Assembly: GCA_030068145.1 (NCBI GenBank)
Contig: JAPJBO010000476.1
Coordinates: forward strand, 1-64,000
Direction: 5' to 3'
DNA length: 64,000 nt
Source of the DNA: Diplonema papillatum
Lineage: Eukaryota > Euglenozoa > Diplonemea > Diplonemida > Diplonemidae
How positions within the stretch are numbered: the first letter of the stretch is position 1; each line of letters begins with the position of its first letter. Under the pieces are notes generated by a model. It did no database searches, had not been told where the DNA came from, and saw only the letters and a program-made list of their open reading frames with translations. The translations under genes were made by a program, and so were the position numbers. Shown piece after piece: positions 16,553 to 59,722 of the stretch.

Positions 16553-18128
16553 CTCGGGAATACGCTAGTTTCCACTTTGCAAACCGGTGTTCCGGCCCCA
16601 ACAAGGAAGTCGGATTCACGGGGGGCCTTAATGTCCCGAGCAAGCGACACACATGTGGGCAAGGTATCGCAACAAGACGAGACTTCGCGCACGAACATGT
16701 GTACCCCGCCCGGCGGGCAAGGGCGGCGACCGAGAATCGATGACCACCATCATCACGGATCTCATACATGTGGTCACCATCTGGTGTAACTCCCATCGAC
16801 CTTATTGTCATATCTTGAGACGCTTCCCTGTTTGCTGTCACATGCTGCAGTGCAAGAGGGAGGACGGCGGTCATGGCTGAATTCGCCGTGACATCTTTCT
16901 CAACAAAAAAAGACGCAACCTTGTGGCGATACATGTCAAAGAGGGCTAGAACATGTACTTTTCGAGCCTGCAAGAGTGACCGGTTGAAGCTTTCAGAGGG
17001 GTTCGTGCTTCTGTGCACGTCGTAAGGCAAGTTTGCGAGAGAGCGGTTCGCTCCTTCTGGAAGAAAAGCGTCAGCAAAACGTTCTTTTAACGGCAAGACG
17101 TAATCCAGAACACGATCTGCACTTTCCGGGTAAGCGGCTCGAAGCTTTTCCTTAGCAATTTCGAAAAGTTCAGTGCTCTGGGCCTTGGAGAGTTCCCGAA
17201 CGTGGTGACTGAACTTATCAGTTTTTTCCCGTGCAGCCACATTGTCACAGATGTGAGTAGCGCAAAATAAGTGCACAACTGCAGGAAGTTCTTCCTGAAC
17301 AACGCTGTCCAAACCCGTTCGCCGGTCTGTCATGAGGGTCTTACCATCTAGGTCAAATGATTCTCGGACTGCCCGTAAAAACACGCGCCAGCCGTGGTTC
17401 GACTCAAACTGGAAGGGATAAACCCCAATCGCCAGAGGCAAGATCTTCGAGTTCGGATCGCTAGTTACGAGCACGAGGAGGTGGCCTTTCATTTTTCCGC
17501 GCAAAAATGTGCCATCAGCAGACACGTACTTCGGGTTTAGGTGGCGAAAGGCCTCTTTACTGCATCCCAACGCCATAAAGGCGTTGTCGAACTTGTTGTC
17601 GGCAGTTCGATGCACGAACGCATCGGTTCCAGGATTCTTCTCTTGGGCATGAGAGAAAAAGTCCTGAAGTTGAGAATAGGACTTTTTCGTGTTGCCGAAC
17701 AGTTGTGTCTCTACCAAATTCATGGCAGTTCGGGCGGTTTTTAGGGAAACATCAACGCCAGTTTTCGCTTTGAACGCCGAAGCCACTAAAGCAGCCGTGA
17801 CACTTTGCTCCTCAATCAGGTCCTTCAACTGAGAGGCTACAACTTTAGCCATTCCCTTCCCTTTCAACCCAAGGGCTTGACAGTTGTGGGCAATACACTC
17901 ACCGCACTTCCATACGGCATGCGCTGCATCTTTCCGGAAGCTCACGTAATACTGGCAGGGTGCCTCCTCCTCTAGCTCGTCGGTCACCGAGTGAGCGCAC
18001 CGGTACAGGACAGTCAGTCCGTTGCGGTGCGACTGATACACGGGTTTTCCTGCGGTAGCAGCATCTAATTTTACTGCAGCACATGCAGCCTCCGCACAAG
18101 GAAACTCTGATCCCTTTTCTACTGTCAT
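16443..18128 (-). CDS. MULE-type DDE transposase
   Basis: A 561-residue frame with a true ATG. It encodes the enzyme that would cut at Mutator-type inverted repeats and join the element to a new site. Seen: N-terminal Cys/His-rich region (residues ~10-95, C...H...C..C...H) likely to bind DNA. The MULE catalytic core shows first Asp in SADGTFLRGK, second in LMTDRRTGL with the downstream CATHI, and Glu in TNPSESFNRSL. A SWIM zinc finger follows (YTCSC...CPHVC). The expected C-terminal zinc knuckle is in another frame just downstream (16058-16552). The frame appears to slip near 16520, where the other frame continues with the Pro/Arg-rich tail typical of MULEs. The catalytic part looks intact. 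Confidence 0.9.
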   Translation of the reverse strand: MTVEKGSEFPCAEAACAAVKLDAATAGKPVYQSHRNGLTVLYRCAHSVTDELEEEAPCQYYVSFRKDAAHAVWKCGECIAHNCQALGLKGKGMAKVVASQLKDLIEEQSVTAALVASAFKAKTGVDVSLKTARTAMNLVETQLFGNTKKSYSQLQDFFSHAQEKNPGTDAFVHRTADNKFDNAFMALGCSKEAFRHLNPKYVSADGTFLRGKMKGHLLVLVTSDPNSKILPLAIGVYPFQFESNHGWRVFLRAVRESFDLDGKTLMTDRRTGLDSVVQEELPAVVHLFCATHICDNVAAREKTDKFSHHVRELSKAQSTELFEIAKEKLRAAYPESADRVLDYVLPLKERFADAFLPEGANRSLANLPYDVHRSTNPSESFNRSLLQARKVHVLALFDMYRHKVASFFVEKDVTANSAMTAVLPLALQHVTANREASQDMTIRSMGVTPDGDHMYEIRDDGGHRFSVAALARRAGYTCSCAKSRLVAIPCPHVCRLLGTLRPPVNPTSLLGPEHRFAKWKLAYSRGVVPLERSLWETTNRQYTTAREGSTSATRRTHGIAD

Positions 18129-18644
18129 CGGGGATGTCGACTCTTACCCCCCAGAAATTGTTCCTTTGAAAGCCCTGTCGTATGGTCACTTTAGCACATG
18201 CAGTAAAACAAAGCTTCCCTTTTTAAGGCATGGATTCATGATGGCAACGACTTCAGAATGTACGTACTGTGATAGGCACACAATGATGGGCAAAACGAGT
18301 CACGGCGAGTGCTGGATCCGCTCCAGCCTGGAATGGGCAAAAAGTTTGGAAAAGGTGCTGGAATGGGCAAAAAGTTTGGAAAAGGTGCTGGAATGGGCAA
18401 AAAGTTTGCGACAGTGCTGGAATGGGCAAAAAGTTTGGAAACGGTGCCGGAATGGGCAAAAAGTTTGCGATAGTGCTGGAATGGGCAAAAAGTTCAAAAA
18501 GGTGCTGGAATGGGAACCTGGGCAATTTTCAATGTTCGAGAATGGGCAAAAAAGTTAGGCGACTGTTCGAGAATGGGCAAAAAGTTAGCGAGTGTTCGAG
18601 AATGGGCAAAAAGTTAAATTGTGTTCGAGAATGGGAATTAGCCC

Positions 18645-20323
18645 GTCATTTCCCATTATAGTACACACTTTCTTAGAGTAGTACACACCTCTTAGAGTTA
18701 CCCAAGATAGTACATGTTTCCTTAGAGTTGCCCATTATAGTACATGTTTCCTTAGAGTTGCCCATTATAGTACACACACTTGAAACTCCTGGAAGGCCCC
18801 CAGAAATGCAAGAAAAATGCACACAAACCGTAGTTTTTGCTTTTTCTTCGTTTTTTTTAGAGACCCCCCTTTCCCCAGCCGTGGCCGAGGAACGGGCTGA
18901 TGGTTGGGTGAAATACCAAAAGAGTACGGTTTCCTGACTCGGACCTGAGTTTGTGCCCAAAACTTGAGTTCCAAACTTGGGTCCCAAACTTGGGTCCCAA
19001 ACTTGGGTCCCAAACTTGGGTCCCAAACTTGGGTCCCAAACTTGGGTCCCAAACTTGGGTCCCAAACTTGGGTCCCAAACTTGGGTCCCAAACTTGGGTC
19101 CCAAACTTGGGTCCCAAACTTGGGTCCCAAACTTGGGTCCCAAACTTGGGTCCCAAACTTGGGTCCCAAACTTGGGTCCCAAACTTGGGTCCCAAACTTG
19201 GGTCCCAAACTTGGGTCCCAAACTTGGGTCCCAAACTTGGGTCCCAAACTTGGGTCCCAAACTTGGGTCCCAAACTTGGGTCCCAAACTTGGGTCCCAAA
19301 CTTGGGTCCCAAACTTGGGTCCCAAACTTGGGTCCCAAACTTGGGTCCCAAACTTGGGTCCCAAACTTGGGTCCCAAACTTCGGTCCCAAACTTCGGTCC
19401 CAAACTTCGGTCCCAAACTTCGGTCCCAAACTTGGGTCCCAAACTTGGGTCCCAAACTTGGGTCCCAAACTTGGGTCCCCAACTTGGGTCCCCAACTTGG
19501 GTCCCCAACTTGGGTCCCCAACTTGGGTCCCCAACTTGGGTCCCCAACTTGGGTCCCCAACTTGGGTCCCCAACTTGGGTCCCCAACTTGGGTCTCAAAC
19601 GCGGTGCACCGTGCTGCACGCGAGGAAACCCGGCTGAGGGGAATTGATGCCTGTTGTGTTTCAGTTTTTGATCGGCATGGCAGCAAACCTTGCCATTTTG
19701 GTCCTTGATTCGATGAGAGTCTGGATTTCCTAACCGAACCTGGTTCTGCAGAAACTTGGACACAACTTGGACTCAAAACTTGGACCCGCACTCAAGTTGG
19801 AACAAAGTACTCTTTTGGGCACAAACAGGAAAAGGTGCTGTTTAGTGCACAAACTCGGGAAACGTACTGTTTTGGACCTCATCCCAGGCTCGTTTTGCCC
19901 GGGCTTCGTTCCGCCCCACAGACAGAACAGAACAGGATAAGAGACCGTGCCAGAGCAAAACGTACTATAATGGACAACTCTAAGGAAACATGTACTATCT
20001 TGTTCAACTCTAAGGAAAGATGTACTATCTTGATCAACTCTAAGGAAACATGTACTATCTTGATCAACTCTAAGAAAAACCGTACTATCTTGGGATGTAC
20101 TATAATGGGCAACTCTAAGGAAACATGTACTATCTTGATCAACTCTAAGGAAAGATGTACTATCTTGATCAACTCTGATCAACTCTAAGAAAAACCGTAC
20201 TATCTTGGGATGTAGTACTATCTTGATCAACTCTAAGAGGTATGTACTATAATGGGTAACTCTAAGGAAACATGTACTATCTTGATCAACTCTAAGAAAA
20301 ACCGTACTATCTTGGGTATTGAC
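18645..20323. mobile_element. Mutator-like non-autonomous element with central 13-bp minisatellite
   Basis: The ends begin GTCATTTCCCATTATAGTAC (left) and GTCAATACCCAAGATAGTAC (right, minus strand). Arrays of a 30-bp unit containing tagtacatgtttccttagag follow (18655-18785 and, inverted, 19965-20320). The unit core (gcccattatagtac) matches the corresponding core of the two preceding elements. It starts exactly where the MULE ends. No transposase is present and the long frames are minisatellite artefacts. Confidence 0.65.
18967..19598. repeat. 13-bp minisatellite (ttgggtcccaaac), about 48 copies
   Basis: A perfect-period 13-bp array. Three variant blocks are visible in order: a long block of cttgggtcccaaa, four copies of cttcggtcccaaa near 19375-19430, then a terminal block with ccccaa instead of cccaaa from about 19475. 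The block structure shows local unit spreading. Since 13 is not a multiple of 3, all six frames stay open with the same peptide words, which explains the overlapping 230-370-residue frames; none is taken as a gene. Confidence 0.95.
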
Positions 20324-20714: not shown

Positions 20715-23622
20715 GTCCGACCCCCCCCCCCCCATAAATTGGGGCTTTTACCTCTAATACACATGGCAAATTTCAAAATCCCCATAGTGCACACGGCAAT
20801 TTTTTGTGACCATAATGCACTTTTCAAATTATTTTTTGGGGATAATTAGCTTATAGCCACCAAGAAACTTTTTATTTAGCTTATAGCCACAAAAAACTTT
20901 TTATTTAGCTTATAGCCAGGAGGGCCTGAAACTTTTTATTTAGCTTATAGCCACAAAAAACTTTTTATTTAGCTTATAGCCACAAAAAACTTTTTTATTA
21001 GCTTCGAGCCACATTTTGCAAATTTTTGGTCATTTTCCTGAGTTGGCAAAATTTTGGCCAAAATTTTGGCCAAAATTTTGGTCGAATTTTTGGTCGAATT
21101 TTTGGTCAAATTTTTGGTCAAATTTTGGTCGATTTTTTGGTCGATTTTTTTTGGTCAAAATTTTGGCCGAAATTTTGGTCAAATTTTTTGGTCTACAATT
21201 AGACTCCAATCCCTGAGAACACACCCATGGCGGGATTCGAACCATTTACCCAGCCATTGACTGTGACAACTGTGCGATTTGGATTCGAACTCAAGTTTCC
21301 AATTCAAGTTTCAAGTTGCAAGTTTTAAGCTTCAATGTGTGGGATACGTTTGGGGGAGTCAAGGTGATTCTGGGGTAGCGTCTAATCTCATCCCATTTCA
21401 ACTTTGCATAGGTCTCGTTTACTTGGACCCCCTTTCTGCCGATTTGCGACTGCCGACTTGCGGCGCAACCATTGCGTTGTTAACTCTCTTCATCAGATTC
21501 CTGCAACCCGGCGGCATCTGGACGGCCGTAGTGGGAGCAAGGGGTGCAACACGCTAAAAGACTGGAAGTACCGGGCATGAATGTTGCGAGCATACGGGTG
21601 CTGAAAGAGAAACCGGGAAACATGATACATAGCTCGCAGAGTTCAGACCAGGGTACTTTTCGGTGACACTCTCTTTAACGCAAACGGCGGCAAGCTCTTT
21701 GTGGACGATTTTTCAAGTCGGTTCTTATGTAGCCTTCGGGCGTAAACACACGTGGGTGACCCTATCTAGACTGTTTCGAGTATCAGACTCCAAAAATTCA
21801 AGCAATGATAAGATGATACGACTGTTTCGAGTGATGAGATGATAAGACGTGGAGAAGGTTGGACTCGCTCCGGGTGGGCCCGAAAACCCCTACCTGCAGC
21901 GAAGATGAACGTGTGCAAATAGGTGTGGCCACTCCAGTAGCTGGCACAGCACGGCAAAGGGTTTTCTGGGTTCGAATTCCGTGTGTGATTTTTCTCAGAT
22001 TGGCTAACAATTGACCAATTTTTTTGACCAAAAGTTTTGACCGATTTTTCTTGAACAAATTTTTTGGCCAAAAATTTTTGACCCAAAATCTTGACCAAAA
22101 TTTATTGACCGATTTTTTTTGACCAACATTTTTGGCCAAAATTTTTGACCGATTTTTTTTGACCAAATTTTTGGGCCAATTTTTTGACCAAAAATTTTTG
22201 ACCAAACTTTTCGACCAAGTTTTCACCAGGTGGCTATAAGCTAAAAAAAAAGTTTCAGGACCTCCTGGCTATAAGCTAAATAAAAAGTTTTTTGTGGCTA
22301 TAAGCTAAATAAAAAGTTTTTTGTGGCTATAAGCGAAATAAAAAGATTTGAAAGTGCTATAAGCTAATTAAAAAGTTTTACTTTAGGTGGCTATAAGCTA
22401 AATAAAAAGTTAGCAGGTGGCTATTAGATAAAAAGCCCTATTTTTTGACACATAATACACATGGCAAATAATTTTTGGTCAACCCTGTGCGTGCACACAT
22501 TCGAGTGACATTGTGACAGAAACATTCACGTTTTGCTCCAAGCTTTGGCTCCAAGCTTTGGCTCCAAGCTTTGGCTCCAAGCTTTGGCTCCAAGCTTTGG
22601 CTCCAAGCTTTGGCTCCAAGCTTTGGCTCCAAGCTTTGGCTCCAAGCTTTGGCTCCAAGCTTTGGCTCCAAGCTTTGGCTCCAAGCTTTGGCTCCAAGCT
22701 TTGGCTCCAAGCTTTGGCTCCAAGCTTTGGCTCCAAGCTTTGGCTCCAAGCTTTGGCTCCAAGCTTTGGCTCCAAGCTTTGGCTCCAAGCTTTGGGTCCA
22801 AGTTTTGTGTTCAACTTTTCAAGCTCTAAAGTGTCTTGCAGATCACACCAGTTGCTGATTTCCTTCGTTTTGAAATTTAGCTCTTGTAAGATTTGTTTGC
22901 TAATGCTGCACCTGAGTGGTTACTTGCTCTTTTCAATCTTCTGAACCTTGACTCAGTCATTCAATTCAAAGTGTTGTCGTTGTAATTCGGCAACCTACTT
23001 AAAAAACTGACGACAACACTGTTGTCAACAGCGTCGAAGAGTTGGCATGAAACCTGTCGCAACAAAAAGTGGGTTTCGAGTGCGAGATGAGCCCAGACTG
23101 AGGGCCAGAGTAGCAGAAATTAGGGTTCAAGTCAGCTTTGACCACGGCGCACTGACTCGTAGCTGAGTACGGTACTCAAGAGATGGCATACCCAGTATCG
23201 GGCTGAGCCTGTGCCAGGCTGCGGTGAGCCGGGTGACACTCGGGTTCTATCCGGGCGAACTCCCTTGTGGGAAAGTTGTGGGTGCACTGGCTGGAGAGGA
23301 GGCGTTGCCAAATCTGTGTGACTATCTAATATCTGTACGCGTTGTTATCGTTTGCTGTGCGGCCATAATGCGGGCCATATCGGTCCCGTATTGGGCGAAA
23401 CCCTACTTCTACCACTCCTGTGGTAGTACACCCCCGAATTTCACCCAGAATTTGAGTCCAAATATCAAGTGCCAAAAAATCTCAAAAACTACACGCCATG
23501 TGTATTATGTGGTAAAAAATAATCGCATGTGTATTATGGGGATTTTGAAATTTGCCATGTGCATTATGGGGATTTTAAAATTTGCCGTGTGTATTAGAGG
23601 TAAAAGCCCCATAAATTGAGGC
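20715..23622. mobile_element. Terminal-inverted-repeat element with a nested fold-back element
   Basis: Outer ends share cataaattggggcttttacc and ctaatacacatggcaaattt words (20733-20825 and, inverted, 23495-23622). Nested inside at about 20840-22430 is a second inverted structure. Its arms are five to six repeats of a ~32-bp unit (aacttttta-tttagcttatagccaca), followed by ttttggccaaaattttggtc repeats. The remaining interior holds a 12-bp minisatellite (22535-22802) and no recognisable transposase. Confidence 0.65.
22535..22802. repeat. 12-bp minisatellite (gctccaagcttt), about 22 copies
   Basis: Nearly perfect 12-bp repeats containing the HindIII palindrome aagctt in every unit. Open frames on both strands are artefacts of a period divisible by three. 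Confidence 0.95.
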
Positions 23623-46259: not shown

Positions 46260-49200
46260 ATGTCAGACGAATTGGCGGTTCTCAAGAGTGAAAATGTGGA
46301 GCTGAAGGCGAAGATGGAAGAGGTGTGTTTCCCTTTTCGCTCTCTCTATCTCGAGACGGTCAGCGCAGTAGCGATGACCACAAGAATACATACAGGTGGG
46401 TGGGAGAGGCAGGGACGGAGTTCACCTTGGCAGCCCTGGCCAGGGCCTCTCCCCACCTGTATGTGTTCTCGTGATCATCGCTGACCTTTCCCACTAGAGA
46501 AAGACACGTCAAAACAAGTCAAATAGTATGGGCTTCCACCGTCAGGTGGGCAGACTAGTTCCGGGGTGGCTCCTGGGAGGGACAGGGACGGAGTTCACCT
46601 TGGCAGCCCTGGCCAGGGCCTCTCCCCACCTGTATGTGTTCTCGTGATCATCGCTGACCTTTCCCAATAGAGAAAGACACGTCAAAACAAGTCAAATAGT
46701 ATGGGCTTCCACCGTCAGGTGGGCAGACTAGTTCCGGGGTGGCTCCTGGGAGGGACAGGGACGGAGTTCACCTTGGCAGCCCTGGCCAGGGCCTCTCCCC
46801 ACCTGTATGTGTTCTCGTGATCATCGCTGACCTTTCCCAATAGAGAAAGACACGTCAAAACAAGTCAAATAGTATGGGCCTCCACCGTCAGGTGGGCAGA
46901 TTAGTTGGGGCAAACGTTTGCGACGTTTTTTTAAACACTGCGCTAAGGGGGGTGACACGTTTAAAACGAGTCCGCAACACTCACGCTTCAACGTGGACAC
47001 ACTCTCGCTAAGGGGGCTGCACGTTTAAAACGAGTCCGCAACACTCACGCTTCAACGTGGACACACTCTCGCTAAGGGGGCTGCACGTTTAAAACGAGTC
47101 CGCAACACTCACGCTTCAACGTGGACACACTCTCGCTAAGGGGGCTGCACGTTTAAAACGAGTCCGCAACACTCACGCTTCAACGTGGACACACTCTCGC
47201 TAAGGGGGCTGCACGTTTAAAACGAGTCCGCAACACTCACGCTTCAACGTGGACACACTCTCGCTAAGGGGGCTGCACGTTTAAAACGAGTCCGCAACAC
47301 TCACGCTTCAACGTGGACACACTCTCGCTAAGGGGGCTGCACGTTTAAAACGAGTCCGCAACACTCACGCTTCAACGTGGACACACTCTCGCTAAGGGGG
47401 CTGCACGTTTAAAACGAGTCCGCAACACACCCACGCTTCAACAGATGGAGATGAAGATGCTCGCGCTTCGGTACGCGTCTAACTCGCACGACCTGGAAGA
47501 TGCGTACCAAAGGCGGAAGGTGGCGCTCGATAACGTGAGCCCAGAACTCGGAACACGGGTGAAGGTTGTGCACACCGGATCGCGGTACAACGCGGAGGAC
47601 TTCAAAGACAGCTTCGGGGACGTGACGTTCGACCCGACGACGAACGTGACCGACTCGATGATGGGCGTCATCATCGCGAAGGTGCAGCACTTCAAGAAGA
47701 AGGACACCGAGGTGTTCCTGGTGCAGTTCGACAACAAGAAGTCGGCCGTGTTCGCGCGGAAGGGGTTCGAGGTGGCGTTCTGGATCGGCTGCCCAGTCAA
47801 GGTCGTCAATGACGGGTGCAAATACTCGTCGAAGGACTTCCAGGCGCAGTTCCCGAAGCACACGCTTGTCGACGTGTGCCGGGTGGGGCAGAAGGGCATC
47901 GTGATCGACATCGTGCCGCACTACAAAGCGAAGAACACCGCCGTCTTGCTCGTCGCGATCGACGGCCAGCCACGGTGCGTCATCATGAACGGAAAGGGCT
48001 GCATGCCGTTCGACACCCCGGGTATCCGCGAATACGCCCTCCGCAAAGAACGGGAGGAGAAGGCCGCGCTGGAGAAGGAGCAGAAGGAAGGGTCGACCGA
48101 GAACGACGCGGGTGAAAAGCGCAAGGTGCGTCCTCCTTTTTCCTTGTTAAAAAGGAAACTAAACTAGTAGTAGGGTATCCAGAAATTGGCTAACGAGATG
48201 GATCTGAAAGCTGAAGACTTTGTAACACTTTGCCGCGACTATAGCCACGAACCGGGTTCAGCTTGCACTGCAGTTGCAGCAAAAATTGTGTCGTGCACAC
48301 GAGCGCGGAAATCCGCCACCCACCATTCGATTGCGAAGCTTACTACAAACGGATAGTGGCGAACGAATCATGCGAGAACCTATGGAGTGTGGATGGGGCC
48401 CCTCGACACCTTTCAGAACACGGCATAGCAAGTCAAGAGACGAATAAGCGTGCGCACATTCTACTCCCGCTTGATCTGCGTTTTCGACCTTTCCCCGCTG
48501 TCTTTGATCTGTTGTATAAGTCTAGAGCCATCTTTGATCTGTTGTATAAGTCTAGAGCCATCTTTGATCTGTTGTATAAGTCTAGAGCCATCTTTGATCT
48601 GTTGTATAAGTCTAGAGCCATCTTTGATCTGTTGTATAAGTCTAGAGCCATCTTTGATCTGTTGTATAAGTCTAGAGCCATCTTTGATCTGTTGTATAAG
48701 TCTAGAGCCATCTTTGATCTGTTGTATAAGTCTAGAGCCATCTTTGATCTGTTGTATAAGTCTAGAGCCATCTTTGATCTGTTGTATAAGTCTAGAGCCA
48801 TCTTTGATCTGTTGTATAAGTCTAGAGCCATCTTTGATCTGTTGTATAAGTCTAGAGCCATCTTTGATCTGTTGTATAAGTCTAGAGCCATCTTTGATCT
48901 GTTGTATAAGTCTAGAGCCATCTTTGATCTGTTGTATAAGTCTAGAGCCATCTTTGATCTGTTGTATAAGTCTAGAGCCATCTTTGATCTGTTGTATAAG
49001 TCTAGAGCCATCTTTGATCTGTTGTATAAGTCTAGAGCCATCTTTGATCTGTTGTATAAGTCTAGAGCCATCTTTGATCTGTTGTATAAGTCTAGAGCCA
49101 TCTTTGATCTGTTGTATAAGTCTAGAGCCATCTTTGATCTGTTGTATAAGTCTAGAGCCATCTTTGATCTGTTGTATAAGTCTAGAGCCATCTTTGATCT

Positions 49201-51962
49201 GTTGTATAAGTCTAGAGCCATCTTTGATCTGTTGTATAAGTCTAGAGCCATCTTTGATCTGTTGTATAAGTCTAGAGCCATCTTTGATCTGTTGTATAAG
49301 TCTAGAGCCATCTTTGATCTGTTGTATAAGTCTAGAGCCATCTTTGATCTGTTGTATAAGTCTAGAGCCATCTTTGATCAGTTGTATAAGTCTAGAGCCA
49401 TCTTTGATCTGTTGTATAAGTCTAGAGCCATCTTTGATCAGTTGTATAAGTCTAGAGCCATCTTTGATCAGTTGTATAAGTCTAGAGCCATCTTTGATCA
49501 GTTGTATAAGTCTAGAGCCATCTTTGATCAGTTGTATAAGTCTAGAGCCATCTTTGATCAGTTGTATAAGTCTAGAGCCATCTTTGATCAGTTGTATAAG
49601 TCTAGAGCCATCTTTGATCAGTTGTATAAGTCTAGAGCCATCTTTGATCTGTTGTATAAGTCTAGAGCCATCTTTGATCAGTTGTATAAGTCTAGAGCCA
49701 TCTTTGATCTGTTGTATAAGTCTAGAGCCATCTTTGATCTGTTGTATAAGTCTAGAGCCATCTTTGATCTGTTGTATAAGTCTAGAGCCATCTTTGATCT
49801 GTTGTATAAGTCTAGAGCCATCTTTGATCTGTTGTATAAGTCTAGAGCCATCTTTGATCTGTTGTATAAGTCTAGAGCCATCTTTGATCTGTTGTATAAG
49901 TCTAGAGCCATCTTTGATCTGTTGTATAAGTCTAGAGCCATCTTTGATCTGTTGTATAAGTCTAGAGCCATCTTTGATCTGTTGTATAAGTCTAGAGCCA
50001 TCTTTGATCTGTTGTATAAGTCTAGAGCCATCTTTGATCAGTTGTATAAGTCTAGAGCCATCTTTGATCTGTTGTATAAGTCTAGAGCCATCTTTGATCT
50101 GTTGTATAAGTCTAGAGCCATCTTTGATCTGTTGTATAAGTCTAGAGCCATCTTTGATCAGTTGTATAAGTCTAGAGCCATCTTTGATCAGTTGTATAAG
50201 TCTAGAGCCATCTTTGATCAGTTGTATAAGTCTAGAGCCATCTTTGATCTGTTGTATAAGTCTAGAGCCATCTTTGATCTGTTGTATAAGTCTAGAGCCA
50301 TCTTTGATCTGTTGTATAAGTCTAGAGCCATCTTTGATCTGTTGTATAAGTCTAGAGCCATCTTTGATCTGTTGTATAAGTCTAGAGCCATCTTTGATCT
50401 GTTGTATAAGTCTAGAGCCATCTTTGATCTGTTGTATAAGTCTAGAGCCATCTTTGATCTGTTGTATAAGTCTAGAGCCATCTTTGATCTGTTGTATAAG
50501 TCTAGAGCCATCTTTGATCTGTTGTATAAGTCTAGAGCCATCTTTGATCTGTTGTATAAGTCTAGAGCCATCTTTGATCTGTTGTATAAGTCTAGAGCCA
50601 TCTTTGATCTGTTGTATAAGTCTAGAGCCATCTTTGATCTGTTGTATAAGTCTAGAGCCATCTTTGATCTGTTGTATAAGTCTAGAGCCATCTTTGATCT
50701 GTTGTATAAGTCTAGAGCCATCTTTGATCTGTTGTATAAGTCTAGAGCCATCTTTGATCTGTTGTATAAGTCTAGAGCCATCTTTGATCAGTTGTATAAG
50801 TCTAGAGCCATCTTTGATCAGTTGTATAAGTCTAGAGCCATCTTTGATCAGTTGTATAAGTCTAGAGCCATCTTTGATCAGTTGTATAAGTCTAGAGCCA
50901 TCTTTGATCAGTTGTATAAGTCTAGAGCCATCTTTGTTCAGTTGTATAAGTCTAGAGCCATCTTTGATCAGTTGTATAAGTCTAGAGCCAGTACCACATC
51001 TAAGGACGGCAGCAGGTGGCCGCTAAGTGGAGTGCATCCGACGACGCAACGAGCAGGTGTCGCAGCGGCGCGTAAAGGGAAAGCAAAAGGGTTAGTCGGT
51101 TTTCATCCGAAACGGAGCGCCTGCTTCCCGCTCCCAGTTTTTGCGGCTGGCTTTTCCGGCAGCTTTCTAGACTGTGTTTCTTGGCGGCTGGCTTTGCGCT
51201 AGGCGCTGGAATTTAGCATTAAACCGCAGCTGCATGCTTACCTTGCGGAGGAGCACTGCCGACGGTTCGCCCCATACTAGGGTGAAGTGGCATACTAGGG
51301 TGAAGTGGCCATACTAGGGTGAAGTGGCATACTAGGGTGAAGTGGCGCTCATGTCCAACAAGTCGTCTTCGTGTATCAGATACACTGTCGACTCTGGTTC
51401 TGCCACGGGGTGCTGCGTAAACATCGTCAGCCTAAACTCATCATTTTCGGGCGCTTTTAATACAGAGATGAAGACAATCTTCACCTGGAATACGGTAGCC
51501 GCCAATAAAACGGCTTGTGTGTCAGCCCACGCTTTTCCCGCTATTTGTCCCGGTTCATAACAATTTTGGTGCCCTTATATCCCGGTTCGCGAAATTTCAA
51601 AGGTGTGGTACTCATCGGCATGCCGATGACTCCCCACTATCGCAACAATATTCCAATCTCAAAGGAGATAAATGTGCTGCAGCCCACACGAAACACACGT
51701 AAAATTTGGGCTTAGTGGCGGGCGTTAGCGTTCAACAAAAAAGACCCTTTTTGTAGTTGGATTGTTTTCCTCCTCTAGCCTCCAAGGCAGTCCCTCGCCC
51801 AGCGGAGTATACCGCCGTGAAAAGAAGACAAAATCGGCCTCCTTGTCTGCACTTCATTGATCTTACGGCTACCCGCTCCGAACGTAGCACACACAACCAC
51901 AGGCCGACGAAGCAGCGGAAAACGAACCCGAAACCAAGAAGGCGAAGGAGGAAGAAGCGTGA
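46260..51962 (+). CDS. Three-exon gene: coiled coil, duplicated barrel-like domain, basic/acidic tail
   Basis: Exons 46260-46322, 47445-48125 and 51903-51962; introns are GT-AG (GAG|GTGTGT...AACAG; AAG|GTGCGT...CCACAG) and all junctions are phase 0, giving 267 residues. Exon 1 and the start of exon 2 join into one helix (LAVLKSENVELKAKMEE then MEMKMLALRY). Residues about 57-130 and 136-207 are two copies of one domain: GTRVKVVHTGSRYNAEDF...GVIIAKVQHF and GCPVKVVNDGCKYSSKDF...GIVIDIVPHY. This looks like a small SH3/Tudor/KOW-like beta barrel. The tail is helical and charged (REEKAALEKEQKEG); exon 3 completes KRK...KKAK, a bipartite nuclear-signal pattern. Codon third positions are strongly G/C. 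Family unrecognised; a nuclear adaptor or nucleic-acid/chromatin binder is inferred. Both introns are full of minisatellites. Confidence 0.75.
46360..46905 (+). repeat. 172-bp tandem repeat in intron 1
   Basis: About three units; gggcttccaccgtcaggtgg anchors lie at 46531, 46703 and 46875. Each unit contains gggacagggacggagttcac, an inner inverted repeat (ggccctggccagggcc) and cccaatagagaaagacacg. A related inverted-ended segment lies at 55680-55845. Confidence 0.95.
46940..47440 (+). repeat. 64-bp tandem repeat at the 3' end of intron 1
   Basis: About eight nearly identical units (ctaagggggctgcacgttta ... cgcttcaacgtggacacact). The last unit runs into the splice acceptor: the repeat word cgcttcaacgtgg becomes cgcttcaacag|atgg at the exon border. 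The acceptor therefore lies in a variant of the repeat unit in which the internal copies lack the AG. Confidence 0.95.
48508..50992 (+). repeat. 30-bp minisatellite, about 83 copies
   Basis: Extremely uniform unit (gttgtataagtctagagcca plus tctttgatct). The only frequent variant is the last base, tgatct versus tgatca. The variants are grouped: one long pure tgatct block, then a mixed block near 49380-49690, tgatct again, tgatca triplets near 50160-50220, tgatct, and a final tgatca block from 50790. This fits local block duplication. A period divisible by three with no stop in two plus-strand phases produces frames of 858-979 codons without meaning. Confidence 0.98.
51271..51343 (+). repeat. 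19-bp tandem repeat, four copies
   Basis: Four copies of catactagggtgaagtggc or the same without the last base. Confidence 0.9.
51600..51740 (+). repeat. Dispersed repeat with palindromic GCATGC motif
   Basis: Starts with gtggtactcatcggcatgcc, containing the perfect 18-bp palindrome at 51612-51629. It continues gactccccactatcgcaaca, aatctcaaaggagataaatg, tgctgcagcccacacgaaac and tggcgggcgttagcgttcaa. The latter part recurs at 54835-54925 with high identity and, diverged, at 43535. Confidence 0.75.
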
Positions 51963-52109
51963 ATAGCCGCTTCCGGCACCCCTTTTTTGACCCCCTCTGT
52001 TTGTCTGCTCCTCCTAGTTGCCCGCCGTATGGCGCGTGAGATGAAGCACCAAGCGAAAGCACCTCTTATCATTGATGATCAATCGCCCACCCCCCCCCCC
52101 CCCCCCCTT

Positions 52110-52440
52110 CCTTCAAAGGACCGAAACACGGCGCAGACGGGACCAGTGCGGTGTTGAGCACATACCCATTCCAAGCACGTTCTTGCAATCCCCCCCCCCC
52201 CCCCTTCCTTCGAAGAAGACTCGATGCTAGCATCAAACATACGGGGTGCGGGGCAGGATTCTGCCCAAACACCAAACTAAATTAAGAGTTCCCCCCTCGA
52301 TTCCTTGTGGGGCGTTCGGTACCGGGCTTCTGTGCTTCCGTAGCATGAGTGATCCTGGCAGTGACGAGCTATGCCGAGGCTTACACGTCTGCAGACACTC
52401 AGGTTCCGCGCTTTTATGATGGTCCGCCCCACGTCTGCGA
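52110..52440 (+). repeat. Cluster of short dispersed repeats
   Basis: 52119-52190 (aacacggcgcagacgggacc, agcacatacccattccaagc) is almost identical to 57770-57847. 52338-52430 (cgtagcatgagtgatcctgg, ctgcagacactcaggttccg) is a diverged copy of 57637-57760. Long C runs are at 52086-52107 and 52189-52204. Confidence 0.8.
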
Positions 52441-54099
52441 GGCTTTCAAGACTGAAGCACGGTACAGATAGGACACATCAGCACATTCATGCACAGCGCC
52501 CCCCCCTCGATTCCTTGTGGCGTCCCGGTAGAGGCAGTTCGGTGTGACTTCCACCCACGGACAGCCTGCAATAGGTCACACGCCACTTGCGGCAGCCAAG
52601 TGCTCGCAGTTCGGAGCGACGTTTTGCTTTTGGATCCTTCGATGTCGGCTCTTCCTGATCTGGCCACGCAGAATTGTCTGCGGGTTAGGTAGTTCGCAAC
52701 CACCAACACACGAACACGAGATACCCGTTTCAGGGGGGGGACAGGTTGCCTCATCCTACTGATGGTGCATCGGGCACAGTGCGTTGCTCAGGGTAGTCGA
52801 AGGCCTGACAATCACACTAACGCAACAAATTTACCGCGTTATAATGTGAACTGCAGCACCAGGGTATAATGATGAACCGGAAGACCATGACGTACCGACT
52901 ACACCGTCTTGGCTTGAAGTTAATATAGCAGAGAATCTGTGGCAAGGCCTTGCATCAGTATCAGTAGTAACTCGGCGATTGCCTCTCTCCGTTAGTCTGC
53001 TCGCGGTCGCTTTGCGTCCTTTCCCTTTCCCTGCTGCGTTTATGCTTCTGCAACCGTTATCGACAGCGGCAGGCACTGCGATGCAGTTCAAGGGGATAGG
53101 GATGGGCTGGCGACCACTGCCACAGCGTCCACCGACGGGAGGAAATCACTTCGCAAATGCCAAGCTCTCAAATGTTCAGACGCCTGATCACCTGGGACGA
53201 GACAAAAAATCACGTGACCAACACCTGGGTACAACACTGGTAGACACCCTGCTAAACGGGCTTCGCGGAATTGGCTGGACTGCACCCGTGTTGGACGTCA
53301 GGCTAACTGCAATGTCATACATAGAACGAACCCAAACGAAGAAGAAGAAGAAAAAGGCCCCTGCGTTCTTTTGAGAACTTACCCCCCCCACCCCCCTCCT
53401 TTCTTCGTGTCTCTTTTCTTTCTTCTGGGTTTTCTTCACTCGAGCAGGGATTATCATGCATGGTTAAATAAGGGTTTCGTCGCCAAAAAAAAAAAAACAT
53501 TCTTCTCGAAACAGGCCGGTTAAAAAAGGTCTTTTAGCCACAGGAGTTTCTGGCGAAGTTTTTTGTGCTCGCAAGGTCAGAGACACGGAGGCTGCAAGAC
53601 CCGCAGGACCCACAGGTGGGGTCTACAGCAAGGTGGCGAAGCAGCAACACGCCCACGAAGGTCGCAGCATCACAGGCCATTACAAAAAGCGAACTTTAAC
53701 TCTAAAGAACCTCCTCAACGTGGAAAAAAATCTTTCCGGCAATGCTACAGCCTTTTTAACCATGATGTTCCCGAGAACAAAAAAAAAACAAAAAAAAAAC
53801 AACAAAACTACGCATCTTTTTCAGTCTTTTTCTTTTTTGGCTTTCTTATTCTTTTTCTCATGGATAGCGATTTTCTCTCTCCCCCCCCCCCCATTTGTCC
53901 ACAAGACTCACTACCAACGCGGCTTCACGCGCACCTTTCAAACCGCATCTTCATCGATCATGTTCTTATTCTGTCTCTTCTTGTTCTTCGTCTTCTTTTT
54001 CACCGTCGTCTTTTTGGTTCTGCACGAAAATATTCTGGTCTTCTTCGGGCAGCAGATTTTTTTTTGAGAACGACATACCACACTGTGGACATGTCAGTA
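52441..54099. other. No supported gene
   Basis: Includes a second ccccctcgattccttgtgg word (52503, also 52294) and a tcgaaggcctgacaatcaca word shared with 38 kb (52798). Poly-A/T-rich tracts lie around 53.48 and 53.77-53.86 kb, with a C run at 53881. A gcgaactttaactctaaag word at 53691 links to the 38.3/54.5-kb repeat. Frames here are T-rich or low complexity. Confidence 0.4.
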
Positions 54100-54500
54100 C
54101 AAAAGGAATGTACTTGGTGTCGTTCACAAACGGTCCCGGACATGGCTAGCCATAACCCATAACGAAAGCGTGCACTAAATATACAACCCGAAACCATATA
54201 GCCCTTTCTTGCTCTAAGAGGAATTGGTGGGGAAAATATTCGGAGGTGTGACTGACATTCTTTGATCCTGTTGGTTCGGGCTGGTTCAGGAGTGCTACCA
54301 TTTTACCGGGATATTACTATTCGTCGAAGCCAGCCCCACCCCGAATTCTTCTGGTGTCGATTCGAGGTGGTCGTGCCCGTCTAGCCATGCGTCTTGCTCC
54401 TATTCCCTCAGTAAACTGCAAAACCCTGAACGATCATGAACGGTCACACGGAGACCCTAAACCCCCGGAATTTCAAGCGAACTTTAACTCTAAAAAGGAA
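54100..54500 (+). repeat. Dispersed repeat copy B, interrupted by a 190-bp insertion
   Basis: Matches 38040-38310 on both sides of about 54230-54420. The inserted piece (54247-54418) is nearly identical to 63792-63955, the sequence just after the stop codon of the 62.7-63.8 kb ORF. The insertion is thus a short fragment of that mobile element inside an older repeat. The resumed word is tcatgaacggtcacacggag. Confidence 0.85.
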
Positions 54501-54544
54501 ACCTGCCGAGTGAAGATGCAAAACAGGTCCTTCGCACACGCGAG

Positions 54545-54735
<191 letters not shown>

Positions 54736-54834
54736 CTTGCGTCGACCAGATCCACCCGGGCGTCTATCAAGAGCATGCGTGACACAGCCGCGTCTCAAAA
54801 GGTGAGATGGTATATACCACTATCGCAACGAGAG

Positions 54835-54925
54835 TCCAATCTCAAAGGAGGTAAATGTGCTGCAGCCCACACGAAACACAGGTAACTCTGGGGTGAGTGG
54901 CGGGCGTAAGCGTTCAACAAGTCGA
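54835..54925 (+). repeat. Second copy of the aatctcaaaggaggtaaatg repeat
   Basis: Matches 51650-51740 over about 90 bp (tgctgcagcccacacgaaac, tggcgggcgtaagcgttcaa). Upstream, acacagccgcgtctcaaaag matches the segment after the motif at 36.78 kb, showing that these short repeats derive from one longer family. Confidence 0.8.
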
Positions 54926-55408
54926 ACTGAGCAAGGCAGTCCCTCGAGCGTTTCTTTGCGCGGAAAGTGTTGGGAACGAGGACGATTCCCTTCTCCGCAT
55001 ACGAGAACCCTCACGAGAATATGCAGCCTCCATCCCCGTGTTGCCCATTTCTTTCGGCTGAAGAAAACGGAGAAGCGGTACTTTTTTTCTTCTCTTCTTT
55101 TTCCCCTTTTTTTGTTTTTTGAGTTTTTTCTTTCTTTTGCTGTTTTGTAGAAGGGAATGTTTCCTTCACCCTTCGGCCTCCTCTTTTCTCTACCCTTTCT
55201 CGTTTGGGACGGATTGCGCTGCTTTGCGATGTGTTCTCCAGCTCCGGCACTCGAACTCCGTTCGTCCGCGCGACTGCTGTTGTGGTGTTGTTATGGTGGT
55301 ATTGCCAACCGCCGCCGAGCAGCGGAACGATCAAGACACCGACGCCGTCACCCTCAGTGGCCTCTTCGCACACTACGACGCACACCACCGCCCTACAGTA
55401 ACCTGCAA

Positions 55409-55603
55409 ATGCACACGCAATGTCCATCGTGCAAAAAGACAGTTCGCAAGGGCGGGCTGACCCAACACCTGCTGTACGTTCATGCTGAGAAGCTTGACAA
55501 GAAGACCTGCCCCCTGTGCATGCAAAGGTTCGCCAGGGATGCCCACATGACGGGGCAGCGGCCCGCACCGCGCCTCCGACGGAACGACCTACGCCCACCT
55601 TAG
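55409..55603 (+). CDS. Short C2H2 zinc-finger ORF, probably partial
   Basis: From an ATG at 55409 the frame encodes 64 residues with one complete finger, CPSC-x11-H-x4-H (KKTVRKGGLTQHLLYVH). A second, incomplete one follows (CPLCMQRFARDAH) without a matching last His. The frame is open upstream to 55157 through a Cys/Arg-rich, less convincing stretch; cgccctacag at 55389-55398 may be an acceptor. The two-finger arrangement resembles N-terminal fingers of RLE retrotransposons and host regulators alike. Function unknown. Confidence 0.45.
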   Translation: MHTQCPSCKKTVRKGGLTQHLLYVHAEKLDKKTCPLCMQRFARDAHMTGQRPAPRLRRNDLRPP

Positions 55604-55679
55604 AAGTACGGGTTTGAAGTGAGGCGACCGGAAACTCCTCGGAGAGATGGTCCCTGCACTCGAACTCGTCTCTCTCTCT

Positions 55680-55845
55680 CGGAATTGTCAGCGCGGTAGC
55701 GATGACAGTGAGGACACATATAGGTGGGAGGGGAGAGGCCCTGGGACTGCTAAGGCGTGACAACCCCCCCCTGTCCCTCCCAGGGAGCCACCCCGAAACT
55801 AGCCTGGCCCACCCGACGGTGGGGGCCCACCCCTTTGACTTGTTT
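55680..55845 (+). repeat. Inverted-ended segment related to the 46.4-kb intron repeat
   Basis: The left half (gtcagcgcggtagcgatgac, acatataggtgggaggggag) matches 46360-46410 directly. The right half (ccctcccagggagccacccc, gacttgtttctagc) matches 46510-46570 in inverse. The two loci are therefore differently arranged copies of one palindromic short element. Confidence 0.65.
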
Positions 55846-56282
55846 CTAGCAAACTTGTTTGAGCACCTTCGGTGCGTCTAGGGGGGTCGAGGACCCAAAG
55901 AGAGACAAGAGGTATTGGGCGACAAGCCCTGAGTGTTTGAAGTCCACTCGCTTCAGAAGCAAGGTTGGAAGGAGACGATTCGGAAACTTAAGGATTCGGA
56001 ATTGGAAAAATACCACAGGCAATTCCTCCTTCTTCCTTGTTCCCGACCTCGCTCCCCTCGATCGATTTTGCGGTATTCGCCCCAAGAGTAAAGGTCTTAA
56101 GGAAAATCATCAAAACCCAAACCGCAGCCACAAAAAACAGCCCGACTAGGACACAACCGCAAAGGGAACCCAAAAACAATCGGAAACCCCAGGAAAGTTT
56201 GATCCACACCGGTGTGGGTTCATAAAACGCCTGCAAAATGTGTCGCCAAACCGCCGGGACCCTGAAAGGTCCGAACGAGACC

Positions 56283-56327
<45 letters not shown>

Positions 56328-56480
56328 ATTCGCATGTCTCTGCAGGCGTGCAAGCAGCGAGCACCATCAAAGTACGAGGGCTAAGACATTGCAGACAGGG
56401 ATTCCATGCAAGATTTTGAATCGAAACCTGGCGAATACTCGAGGGGCTGCCTTGTGCTTACTTCGAAGGAGGCTAGAGGG
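55846..56480. other. No supported gene; (CT)n tract
   Basis: Anonymous sequence with a (CT)n run at 56286-56326. Short frames only. Confidence 0.4.
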
Positions 56481-56976
56481 GGAGAAACAGTACACAGCTC
56501 CAAACGTGGGTCTTTCTTTTGTTGAACGCTTTACGCCCGCCACTAAAAACCAGAATTGCTTGTGTTTTGTGTCCGCTGGTCGCACGACGATCGCGCACCC
56601 CCCGCCGACTCAGCTCGCCCCTCAACGACGCCGTACCTCGCCGTGCCACTAGCCGGAAGCGAGAGCACGAGGACCCCGATTCCGGAGCAGCGGCAAGCTC
56701 AGGGTCGTCGAACTCGTCTTCGAGGCAGTCGAGGAGCGCCGCCACCCGGTGCGCGGTGCTGGACACCGTGTCGAACTGGTCAACCTGCTGCTGCGAGCAG
56801 CCGAGCTGCCGGCGCCTGCTTTCGTAGACCTCCGCCTCGGTCAGGGCCACGGGCACGCCGACGGCGGGGGAGCAGCAGTCGCAACCGTCACGAGTTGTAC
56901 CCCGGCGGAAGCGCGCCAAGAGTGACCCGTCCGGTGTCACGCAGCGAAAGGCTGCTCGTGTGGTACTCATCAGCAT
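56473..56976 (-). CDS. Unrecognised exon with G/C-ending codons
   Basis: ATG at 56976 within a GCATGC motif (ATG-CTG-ATG-AGT-ACC-ACA). The first ~113 codons end mostly in G or C and give a protein-like peptide: a Cys cluster (GCDCCSPAVG), a helix (LTEAEVYESRRRQLG), another helix with Asp/Glu (AALLDCLEDEFDDPEL) and a Ser/Arg segment. A donor (CGAG|GTACGG) at 56637/56636 would end the exon there; the frame itself runs to 56473. No family recognised. The word CGCGATCGTCGTGCGACC downstream is shared with 36.5 kb, where a similar motif also lies about 200 bp upstream on the same strand, suggesting a related degenerate locus. Confidence 0.45.
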   Translation of the reverse strand: MLMSTTRAAFRCVTPDGSLLARFRRGTTRDGCDCCSPAVGVPVALTEAEVYESRRRQLGCSQQQVDQFDTVSSTAHRVAALLDCLEDEFDDPELAAAPESGSSCSRFRLVARRGTASLRGELSRRGVRDRRATSGHKTQAILVFSGGRKAFNKRKTHVWSCVLFLPL

Positions 56977-56999
56977 GCCGGTGACTCTGGTTCACATAA

Positions 57000-57590
57000 C
57001 CAGGATCGGATTGATTCGGACTTAGATCCAGAAGTGCGGCCCCCGCCAAAAATGCGATAAAAATGCCAACCCCTTGATGAGAGATTTTTCACCTCTGTGG
57101 GCATCTTCGGTCGAATGCATCACTGTTTTCCAACTTTCGAAGTGCGAAAATGGCTTCAATGTTTCTTCCGGACCCGAATCCGTAAACATCGGTCAAAACA
57201 GCCTTCTCGATGGTCCGCATTCGAACTATCGCCTGTTTGCGGACCCGGGGCTGGCCGGCCAGATTCTCAAAGGTGAAATGGTCCCCTGGGAAAAATGGGC
57301 CACAAATTGAAGAGCGTTTTTAGGGCGATTTCAGCTGAAAGGACGAGTTTTTTTTTTCGTGACCCCCACCCTGGACACCACCTTCGAGCGATGAGGTCAC
57401 CCTGCTGGTCCCTGTGTACACAGGCCCTGCAGAGCCCACAGTGTACATCAAACTGCAGGAACACCCCATTTTTATTCGAGAACGGCGTATTTGGAAAGGC
57501 TGCCGTAGCACCCTCCATGTTTGCACCTTCCTCGGATGCTACGGTCAGGAAGGGGCTTCAATGTACCTACCCCCTCCCCGTGTTAGTGTC
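57000..57590. other. No supported gene
   Basis: Anonymous sequence; a 78-codon frame at 57074-57310 has no domain. It ends at the cccgtgttagtgtcgcctcc word (57580) that recurs near 57.85, 57.98 and, inverted, 59.7 kb. Confidence 0.35.
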
Positions 57591-57628
57591 GCCTCCGTTT
57601 ACTCCCTTCTCCCCGTGACGGATTCGCC

Positions 57629-57850
57629 TGAGCTCTAGTAGCACGGGTGGTCCTGGCTGTGACGAGCTACGAACAGCCGCCTGACAAACCAGACTCACAC
57701 CGCAGTCCTGTCTGCAGACACTCAGGTTCCGCGCTGATGATGGACCGCCTTATGTGTCCGTGGCTTAAAGGACCGGAACACGGCGCAGACGGGACCAGTG
57801 CGGTGTAGAGCACATACCCATTCCAAGCACGTTCTTGCAATCCCCCGTGT
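57629..57850 (+). repeat. Dispersed repeat with hairpin (gtagcacgggtggtcctgg)
   Basis: gtagcacgggtggtcctggc, tgtgacgagctacgaacagc, ctgacaaaccagactcacac recur at 60472-60545 almost without change and, diverged, at 52338. The first 30 bases can fold (gtagc...gctac). It is followed at 57770-57847 by the aacacggcgcagacgggacc segment shared with 52.12 kb. A small structured RNA gene is possible but unproven. Confidence 0.75.
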
Positions 57851-57982
57851 TAAAGTCGCCTCCGTTTAGCCCTTGTCAGTGTCGCCTTTTTGCCTGAAAC
57901 GCGAGGCGACACTAACACGGGAAGACGGTTCTCAATAGGTGTCCCTGTATTTGCATGAAGAATGTCTCATCCTCACCAACGG

Positions 57983-59722
57983 CTTCCCGTGTTAGTGTCG
58001 CCTTTAAGAAAGTGTAATTCCCTTATATCCCAATGGGATTGCCTTGGGCAAGGGACAAAATTTGTCGTCCCATTGAGATATAAGGGAACAAAATTTGTTG
58101 ACCACAGAACCTGGCCAGACCAGTCAGTCCGACCAGCCTGGACAGACCAGACAGCCTGGACAGCCTGGACAGCCTGGACAGCCTGGACAGCCTGGACAGC
58201 CTGGACAGCCTGGACAGCCTGGACAGCCTGGACAGCCTGGACAGCCTGGACAGCCTGACCAGACCGGTCCGTCCGACCAGCCTGGACAGACCAGACAGCC
58301 TGGACTGACCGGACAGTCCGACCAGCCTGGACAACCAGACAGCCTGGACAGCCTGACCAGACCAGTCAGTTCGACCAGCCCGGACTGACCAGAACTGACC
58401 AGACAGCCCGGACAGCCTGGACAGACCAGACAGTCCGACAAGCCTGGCAGGCTGGAGGCTGGAGCCTGACCAGTCTAGTCCGGCTGACCCAGAGTCCGAC
58501 CAGCCTGGACTGCCTGACCAGACCAAGCCCTGGCGGTTGGTGCTGCAAGATCAACAGGAAGGTTGGGGGAGACTGATCCCTCACACCGAAGTGTTCACGG
58601 GTTGCCTTGTGAGCGTAGATGCGCGGGGCTGAACTCAGGCTGCATGAGTGGGTTTTGTCAGGTAACGATGGTCCTCCACACCGGATCTCAAGAGTAAGCT
58701 TCGTTTCCAAAAGTCGTGATCAAGTCTGTATACCACAGAAGGCGCGAACTTAACGCAAGGACCCTTCAGACGTGGAACGCATTGGTCAGAAAAGCAAACA
58801 CCGCAACGGAGCAGGCGCCCGGCAGGCATTAGGCTCGGTCAGGACTGATCCCTCACACCGAAGTGATCATGGGTTGCCTTGTGAGCGTAGATGCGCGGGG
58901 CTGAACTCAGGCTGCATAGTGGGTTTGCGGAACTGCCGTAGCATCGATCAGCGAGTAAACGTATCCATCCCTGGCCGTGGCGCTCGATGGCTTCGGTAAA
59001 GCGCATCGGGTATACAGACGAGACTTGACTCCGTACTTAGAGAGCGAATTCTGTCGATGATCTTGGGTTGCCTTGTGATCGGCAGATGACTTTACGCAGA
59101 ATTATGCAATATTACCCCTCCCTTCCCTCTTTGCCCTCCCGAAAAGAAAAGGCGTCGTTGAGCACGTGTGAAAAAGGATACGGGTGCACGAGCACGCGGG
59201 GCTCATGCAGATGGAAAAAATCGGCCAATTTATCCGTAACGTAAAACACGCAAACATGCAAGAAGCTGCAGCGCAACCGGATGCGAAGTAGGGCAGTGCT
59301 AAACATGTGCTGACTGCTTCCCGAATTGAAATTGCTGGTGCTGATCCTGCTGCAGGTTCGTGCAGCAATCTTGTTACGACGGCTGTCTTCCTCTTCCTCT
59401 GGCCGCCGAGACCACAAGGGCCGAAGTGGCAGTGAAATTTGAGAAATTGAAACCTCATTTTGGAGGTAAACGCAGCCTCAGATTTGGAAATTCTTTGTTT
59501 CAACGGCACCAAACGTCCCCAAATAGCCGCTTTAAAAATTTTAAAGGGGTCCCCCAAAAATCGTCATGACCACAAATTTGTTCCCTTATATCCCAGTGGG
59601 ACAACAAATTTTGTTCCCTTATCCCATTGGGAAATAAGGGAACAAAAATTGAAGTGATGGGATACAAGGGAAATTCACCTCTAAGAAGAGGTGCCTTCAG
59701 GTAGGCGACACTAACACGGGGG
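57983..59722. mobile_element. 1.7-kb terminal-inverted-repeat element
   Basis: Ends read cccgtgttagtgtcgcct (57983) and the inverse aggcgacactaacacggg (59703-59720). Near both ends are palindromic tatatcccaatggga/acaaaatttgtt words (58020-58100 and 59575-59650). A smaller palindrome with the same ends lies at 57843-57925. The interior holds a 9-bp minisatellite, an 85-bp direct duplication (58560-58650 and 58843-58930; ccctcacaccgaagtg, gcgcggggctgaactcaggc) and no recognised transposase. Confidence 0.65.
58130..58262. repeat. 9-bp minisatellite (acagcctgg), followed by degenerate copies
   Basis: About 12 perfect 9-bp units, then irregular gaccag/acagcctgg words to about 58520. Frames are artefacts. 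Confidence 0.9.

Follow-up and report, generated by a model that had tools for sequence, protein, structure and literature searches.

Dispersed Elements and Tandem Arrays Fill Both Introns of a Probable Gene of Diplonema papillatum

Introduction

In a 64,000-nucleotide stretch of DNA from the marine unicellular protist Diplonema papillatum (contig JAPJBO010000476.1, positions 1 to 64,000; hereafter the window), three putative exons at 46260-51962 are separated by sequence that is largely repetitive. The locus raises the question of whether these three pieces form one gene and, if so, how its introns came to be filled with repeats. According to excerpts of PMC10161547, the D. papillatum assembly comprises 280 Mb in 6,181 contigs, introns occur in 41% of genes and are mostly GT-AG, the median intron is shorter than 1 kb, and transposons in introns as well as gene-adjacent tandem repeats are found. 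The assembly searched in this study (G000) comprised 271 Mb in 2,910 contigs.

Gene Model and Splice Borders

The original prediction had joined three exons in phase 0 across GT-AG borders, and its coordinates, phase and borders were all reproduced. The gene model consists of the following features:

46260..46322, + strand: predicted exon 1 with donor GTGTGTTT, 21 aa, in which the coiled coil begins
46323..47444, + strand: predicted intron 1, 1,122 bp, phase 0, 90% tandem arrays
47445..48125, + strand: predicted exon 2 with donor GTGCGTCC, 227 aa, holding the rest of the coiled coil, two ~80-aa domain copies and the first part of the charged tail
48126..51902, + strand: predicted intron 2, 3,777 bp, phase 0
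51903..51962, + strand: predicted exon 3, 19 aa plus stop, ADEAAENEPETKKAKEEEA

Joined in phase 0, 46260-46322, 47445-48125 and 51903-51962 give a predicted product of 267 aa plus stop. The borders read GAAGAG/GTGTGTTT...TTCAACAG/ATGGAG for intron 1 and CGCAAG/GTGCGTCC...CCACAG/GCCGAC for intron 2. Like canonical diplonemid introns, both begin with GT, end with AG and keep the frame. The gene is probably real, and both introns would be removed by splicing.

For comparison, a PP5 phosphatase gene (contig C455, L057 with L092, 50001-60900) was found by Pfam and traced with a human bait sequence. Its donors, read by eye, are GTAATC, GTGTGTTTCG and GTATGC and its acceptors CCACACACAG and ATTTGCAG; the splice-site sequences of the gene studied here are GTGTGTTTCC, GTGCGTCCTC, CTTCAACAG and AACCACAG. 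By eye, the donor GTGTGTTTC is common to both genes and the acceptors of both are CA-rich. Moreover, the intron 2 acceptor CACAACCACAG is similar to the PP5 acceptor CCACACACAG. A 490-bp tandem array also lies just upstream of the PP5 gene, one of whose introns contains a partial exon copy; both resemble the repeats of gene parts that excerpts of PMC10161547 report for D. papillatum. Among nine kinesin exon pairs, which were hand-picked as roughly adjoining in the profile and lying in different open frames (their ends are approximate and one exon carries a stop), separations ranged from 368 to 20,166 bp and exceeded 1,122 bp in 5/9 and 3,777 bp in 2/9. Intron lengths like 1,122 and 3,777 bp are not unusual in this genome.

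The join between exon 1 and exon 2 is backed by a heptad pattern, of which positions L5, L8, N12, L15 and M19 lie in exon 1 and M22, M26 and L29 in exon 2, in register across the junction. Among 1,246 ATG-to-GT phase-0 candidates in the window (17-60 codons, both strands), 62 had strictly hydrophobic residues at at least four of the five positions, and 13 filled all five when N was allowed; exon 1 alone of these 13 was also at least 40% charged. Shuffled versions of exon 1 filled all five positions in 0.135% of cases, a value to be read with the heptad register having been chosen, and the tests of exons 1 and 3 framed, after the sequence had been seen.

These results bear on a distinctly unlikely alternative in which 47445 is the first position of the gene and the AG just before it receives the leader by trans-splicing; 46260-46322 would then not be an exon, and "intron 1" would be outron or intergenic sequence. 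Exon 2 does open with ATG GAG ATG AAG ATG straight after AACAG, and spliced-leader addition is general in Euglenozoa (PMC10161547, excerpts). However, such a start would leave the in-register heptads and their rarity among shuffles to coincidence, as well as the donor GTGTGTTTC shared with PP5. It would also place the leader right at the ATG with no 5' UTR beyond it, whereas about 70 bp is usual, a figure in which the leader may be counted (PMC10161547, excerpts).

Exon 3, put forward as a charged tail, is less certain than the join between exons 1 and 2, and the argument for it comes from its charged and acidic make-up. On the + strand of 48126-58126 there are 179 AG-started ORFs of 15-59 aa, three of which are at least 55% charged (51903, 51913 and 51916). 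Those at 51913 and 51916 are in another frame of the same stretch as 51903, and of the three only the ORF at 51903 has an acidic share of 30% or more as well; across both strands of the whole window, 2 of 3,030 AG-started ORFs reach both thresholds. Reading through from exon 2 past 48125 meets a stop 13 residues on, so exon 3 is dispensable for a complete protein. Accordingly, the mRNA might end in the repeat remnant after ...GEKRKVRPPFSLLKRKLN, with 51903-51962 a chance match. Long 3' UTRs, with a median of about 800 bp, are usual in D. papillatum (PMC10161547, excerpts), and an mRNA ending there is compatible with a start at 47445. The rare composition of the 51903 frame and the likeness of its acceptor to that of PP5 argue against this ending, and it is considered unlikely. 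A host gene of three exons is the best reading of the locus, with its first join the firmer one.

Third-position GC was 0.88 in exon 2, 0.67 in exon 1 and 0.60 in exon 3. The value of 0.88 also occurs in an open frame with a PP5 exon and in one unassigned frame of L051; because the latter equals exon 2, this measure lends weak support to coding.

Protein and Its Duplicated Domain

A duplicated domain to which no name could be put was part of the original prediction, and the duplication is real. The two ~80-aa copies are 35% identical over 69 aligned columns (E 7e-13), and none of 1,000 shuffles scored equally. One paralog was found, on contig C231, with an E value of 7.6e-8 and 28% identity; the reverse search gave 1.6e-7 and the next match had an E value of 0.68. 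Both paralogs contain the domain twice. In six comparisons between copies, each against 1,000 shuffles, no shuffle scored equally in five and a single one did in the other.

Searches for named relatives gave nothing above the Pfam cut-off. The best Pfam E values for the domain were 0.055, 0.072 and 0.095, all under the cut-off where one was shown. PDB sequences held no relative, and a profile of the four domain copies reached a best E value of 0.16 there, which is chance level. Similarly, none of 14 pattern matches in viral contigs (IMG/VR) was confirmed as a relative, and the one weak PHROGs match of exon 2 (E 0.01) was at chance level. A structure model of exon 2 had a mean pLDDT of 37.7, that is, low confidence. 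When a single domain was modelled with its twin as alignment, the mean pLDDT rose to 50.2 and the model ran strand, helix and three strands, too weak a result to name a fold, be it the barrel-like one of the original prediction (such as a five-stranded SH3-like barrel) or another.

The combination of a coiled coil, twin domains and a basic-acidic tail leads us to guess that the protein may be a nuclear adaptor. The N-terminal heptad coiled coil would serve for pairing, the two ~80-aa alpha/beta domain copies for binding and the KRK...KKAK tail for nuclear entry.

Tandem Arrays

The 172/173-bp and 64-bp repeats originally described in intron 1 and the 83 copies of 30 bp in intron 2 were recovered by Tandem Repeats Finder as three arrays:

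46401-46906: array 1, period 173, 2.9 copies
46941-47442: array 2, period 64, 7.8 copies, 98% matches
48501-50990: array 3, period 30, 83.0 copies, 99% matches

In intron 1, 90% of the sequence belongs to arrays, against 68% in intron 2, 0% in exon 2 and 18% in the part of the window outside the gene. Elsewhere, coverage was 5.7%, ranging from 0 to 13.5%, in ten 5-kb samples taken at one fixed position on ten other contigs. The window is repeat-rich, and both introns of the gene are more so. Neither of the two PP5 introns that could be read through, a small control set, is mostly tandem repeat. With tandem units of about 10-100 bp that are highly alike, the 30-bp and 64-bp arrays have the unit structure of a VNTR. 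Length polymorphism without change of the protein is plausible, as judged from one assembly. The window also holds 13-bp arrays at 18960-19600 and 22531-22807, with 49 and 21 copies, respectively, and 98% matches.

The view that the introns as such are minisatellites did not stand. Instead, they consist of dispersed elements in which the arrays arose: one is of the foldback type, one often carries a CA tail and one is an antisense MULE-family remnant.

Elements of Intron 1

Two elements make up most of intron 1:

46337..46906, + strand: dispersed foldback element with about 3 tandem copies of its right part, period 172/173
46941..47442, + strand: 64-bp minisatellite, 7.8 copies, from a dispersed, often CA-tailed element

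Of 1,222 first-look candidate places for the foldback element, 40 were scored, and these yielded 166 matches, several in tandem. As single-stranded DNA it forms a predicted hairpin with a z score of -5.8, equalled by none of 200 shuffles. All 17 other stretches compared (L015-L031) carry the element too; L023 and L024 represent a single site, and L015 has flanks in common with L016.

The element behind the 64-bp minisatellite has a core of about 57 bp, often with a CA tail, and gave 128 matches from 40 scored of 177 places. Among 20 stretches fetched for it, the 18 picked for short matches carry one or two copies each, and the other two are both ends of a single long array on contig C809. Rfam gave no match to the element up to an E value of 0.5 in the 8 of 20 stretches scanned, and its identification as a known RNA was rejected on this basis. 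Intron 1 was also considered as a possible introner; by eye, none of the inspected copies of either element (for the foldback element, those in 16/17 other stretches) shows GT and AG at its two ends.

The 64-bp unit includes the CTTCAAC of the acceptor context but neither the AG nor exon 2, which come directly after its last copy. It is conceivable that dispersed elements supply intron 3' ends as well as seeding arrays: the CA-tailed element would then be the acceptor tract of intron 1, tandem growth to eight copies up to the acceptor AG would have multiplied branch-point and acceptor context, and copy number would tune splicing. We regard this proposal as highly doubtful.

Elements of Intron 2 and Origin of the 30-bp Array

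Intron 2 contains the following features:

48200..48514, - strand: first flank of a MULE-family remnant (972 first-look candidates, 40 scored)
48501..50990, + strand: 30-bp minisatellite, 83 copies, of which 63 are of one type, 19 of a second and 1 of a third, in blocks
50975..51541, - strand: second flank of the MULE-family remnant, which includes, in antisense and with stops, the end of a transposase-type ORF
51589..51783, strand unassigned: second dispersed repeat (query 490-684; 3,372 first-look candidates for the whole query, 40 scored)

The two flanks, 48200-48514 and 50975-51541, belong to one dispersed element. Matches started at query position 75, which corresponds to 48200, in 34 of 39 scored places elsewhere, and the copy in intron 2 is cut at this position. 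Homology to a MULE transposase was established in two steps through the ORF of a relative, L097. The stretch 51113-51565 (-) is 61% identical to residues 309-440 of that ORF (E 2e-44), and other parts of the ORF match 16337-16510 (-) and 16599-16802 (-) of the window (E 1.3e-8). The latter lies inside a MULE transposase ORF of the window, and the former overlaps the end of that ORF, which spans 16443-18143 (-), encodes 566 aa and matches Pfam MULE with an E value of 1.9e-12. By itself, the L097 ORF gives only a sub-threshold zinc knuckle in Pfam, and a SWIM-like motif was seen by eye.

Comparison with relatives that have both flanks (L097-L100) suggests how the 30-bp unit arose. All four read ...TCTTTGATCTGTTG, then an identical 22 bp, then TATAAGTCTAGAGCCA...; they may not be independent insertions, L097 and L098 being 97% alike. 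In the window, the ends of TCTTTGATCTGTTG and TATAAGTCTAGAGCCA are joined directly, and the resulting 30-bp unit is present in 83 tandem copies. A fifth relative, L101, has the left half and an altered 22-bp stretch only, which indicates that the longer, unfused state is the older one. Loss of the 22 bp would thus have created the 30-bp unit, with amplification following. The genome contains exactly 63 instances of the commonest unit, all in intron 2, and the uniformity of the array fits recent growth or homogenisation.

That the array instead encodes a protein of 10-residue repeats (FDLLYKSRAI or SLICCISLEP), in an ORF of up to 985 aa, has a next to negligible probability. The array has two + frames and, by unit, two - frames without stops (the tally being 3/6 fully open), and long ORFs are predicted, two on the + strand (985 and 865 aa) and one on the - strand (853 aa). 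However, shuffled 30-mers have a mean of 2.9 open frames of six, and three or more are expected with P 0.67. In addition, the common unit variant alters a residue in each open + frame (by eye), and the array sits inside an antisense transposon remnant. The coding reading was rejected, its frames being as open as in shuffled 30-mers.

Partial matches of 46-136 bp to the second dispersed repeat, 51589-51783, were found in 3 of 10 sampled loci (L048, L052 and L057); one of these, a 46-bp match, lies in the first intron of PP5. A VDSGSAT-like frame near 51380, noticed by eye, had suggested a fragment of a retroviral-type protease; it was rejected because this sense frame is the reverse of the MULE-family ORF.

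Proposed History of the Locus

Taken together, the locus is likely an ordinary spliceosomal diplonemid gene, with a possible nuclear adaptor as its product, whose two phase-0 GT-AG introns were filled by dispersed elements, parts of which then grew by tandem duplication. In intron 1, the foldback and often CA-tailed elements would lie nearly end to end, copies of the latter extending to two bases before the end of the acceptor AG. In intron 2, an antisense MULE-family remnant would have lost 22 bp, by which its neighbouring sequences were fused into the 30-bp unit that went on to 83 copies. The spliceosome would remove all arrays, so their copy number is expected to be free to drift while the protein stays unchanged.

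Other Observations in the Genome and the Window

A search was also made with a 33-mer that we take to be the diplonemid spliced-leader exon sequence. It was found at 613 places with at most two mismatches, and its reversed control at 0. Of four leader loci inspected by eye (L044-L047), three continue into related sequence and L047 into something else. Leader pseudogenes and reinserted mRNAs are each a possible source of these places. D. papillatum has about 110 SL RNA genes (PMC10161547, excerpts). None of the four leader loci scanned had an Rfam match, so these four are not the SL-5S-U2 units described in the excerpts of PMC10161547.

An 18S rRNA primer site was found at 254 places, and 6 of 12 scanned loci had an SSU match (L032, L034-L036, L038 and L041). 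One of the six is a full cluster with a long SSU-5.8S-LSU match, divergent and, in our judgement, euglenozoan-looking; the others are fragments. Scattered 28S pieces are mentioned for D. papillatum in excerpts of PMC10161547. The MULE-family element itself contains, adjoining the array, a 26-bp stretch that is 96% identical to 18S rRNA (window 50981-51040; L097-L100). Finally, an open frame of 1,912 codons lies in a very GC-rich stretch at 1779-7517 (-) of the window; its reverse-transcriptase match is just under the Pfam cut-off (E 1.2e-6, 28.8 of 29.6 bits).

Relation to Known Systems and Significance

The repeats reported in the excerpts of PMC10161547 are parts of D. papillatum genes (5' region or end of exon 1), whereas the units described here derive from dispersed elements, and the filling extends to both introns. 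Similar to the "mirage" minisatellites of amphioxus, the arrays of this gene are intronic tandem repeats that reach a splice site; the copy number of mirage minisatellites varies between haplotypes with splicing seemingly undisturbed (PMC3087553, excerpts). Different from mirage units, which span the exon-intron border in the excerpted account, the 64-bp unit ends with ...CTTCAAC, short of the acceptor AG, and the exons take no part in the repetition. The human VNTRs in IL1RN intron 2 (86 bp) and ABCA7 (25 bp), which vary between people, are likewise minisatellites within introns (PMC9944073, excerpts). These are, however, single arrays, whereas three arrays of three origins occupy two introns of one small gene here.

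In the literature library searched, no paper joined "papillatum" with "minisatellite". As far as searched, what is new is that the birth of one array has been traced to a transposon and that a single small gene has both its introns filled. At the same time, the gene clearly exemplifies what is already on record for the D. papillatum genome, namely transposons in introns and gene-adjacent tandem repeats (PMC10161547, excerpts). The locus points to an unnamed protein family, of which two genes were found in the genome, and its arrays could serve as PCR-sized length markers among strains of this model diplonemid. Moreover, it preserves a minisatellite birth that can still be read: the transposon relatives keep the unfused state, so the path from a 22-bp loss to 83 copies can be followed at single-base resolution.
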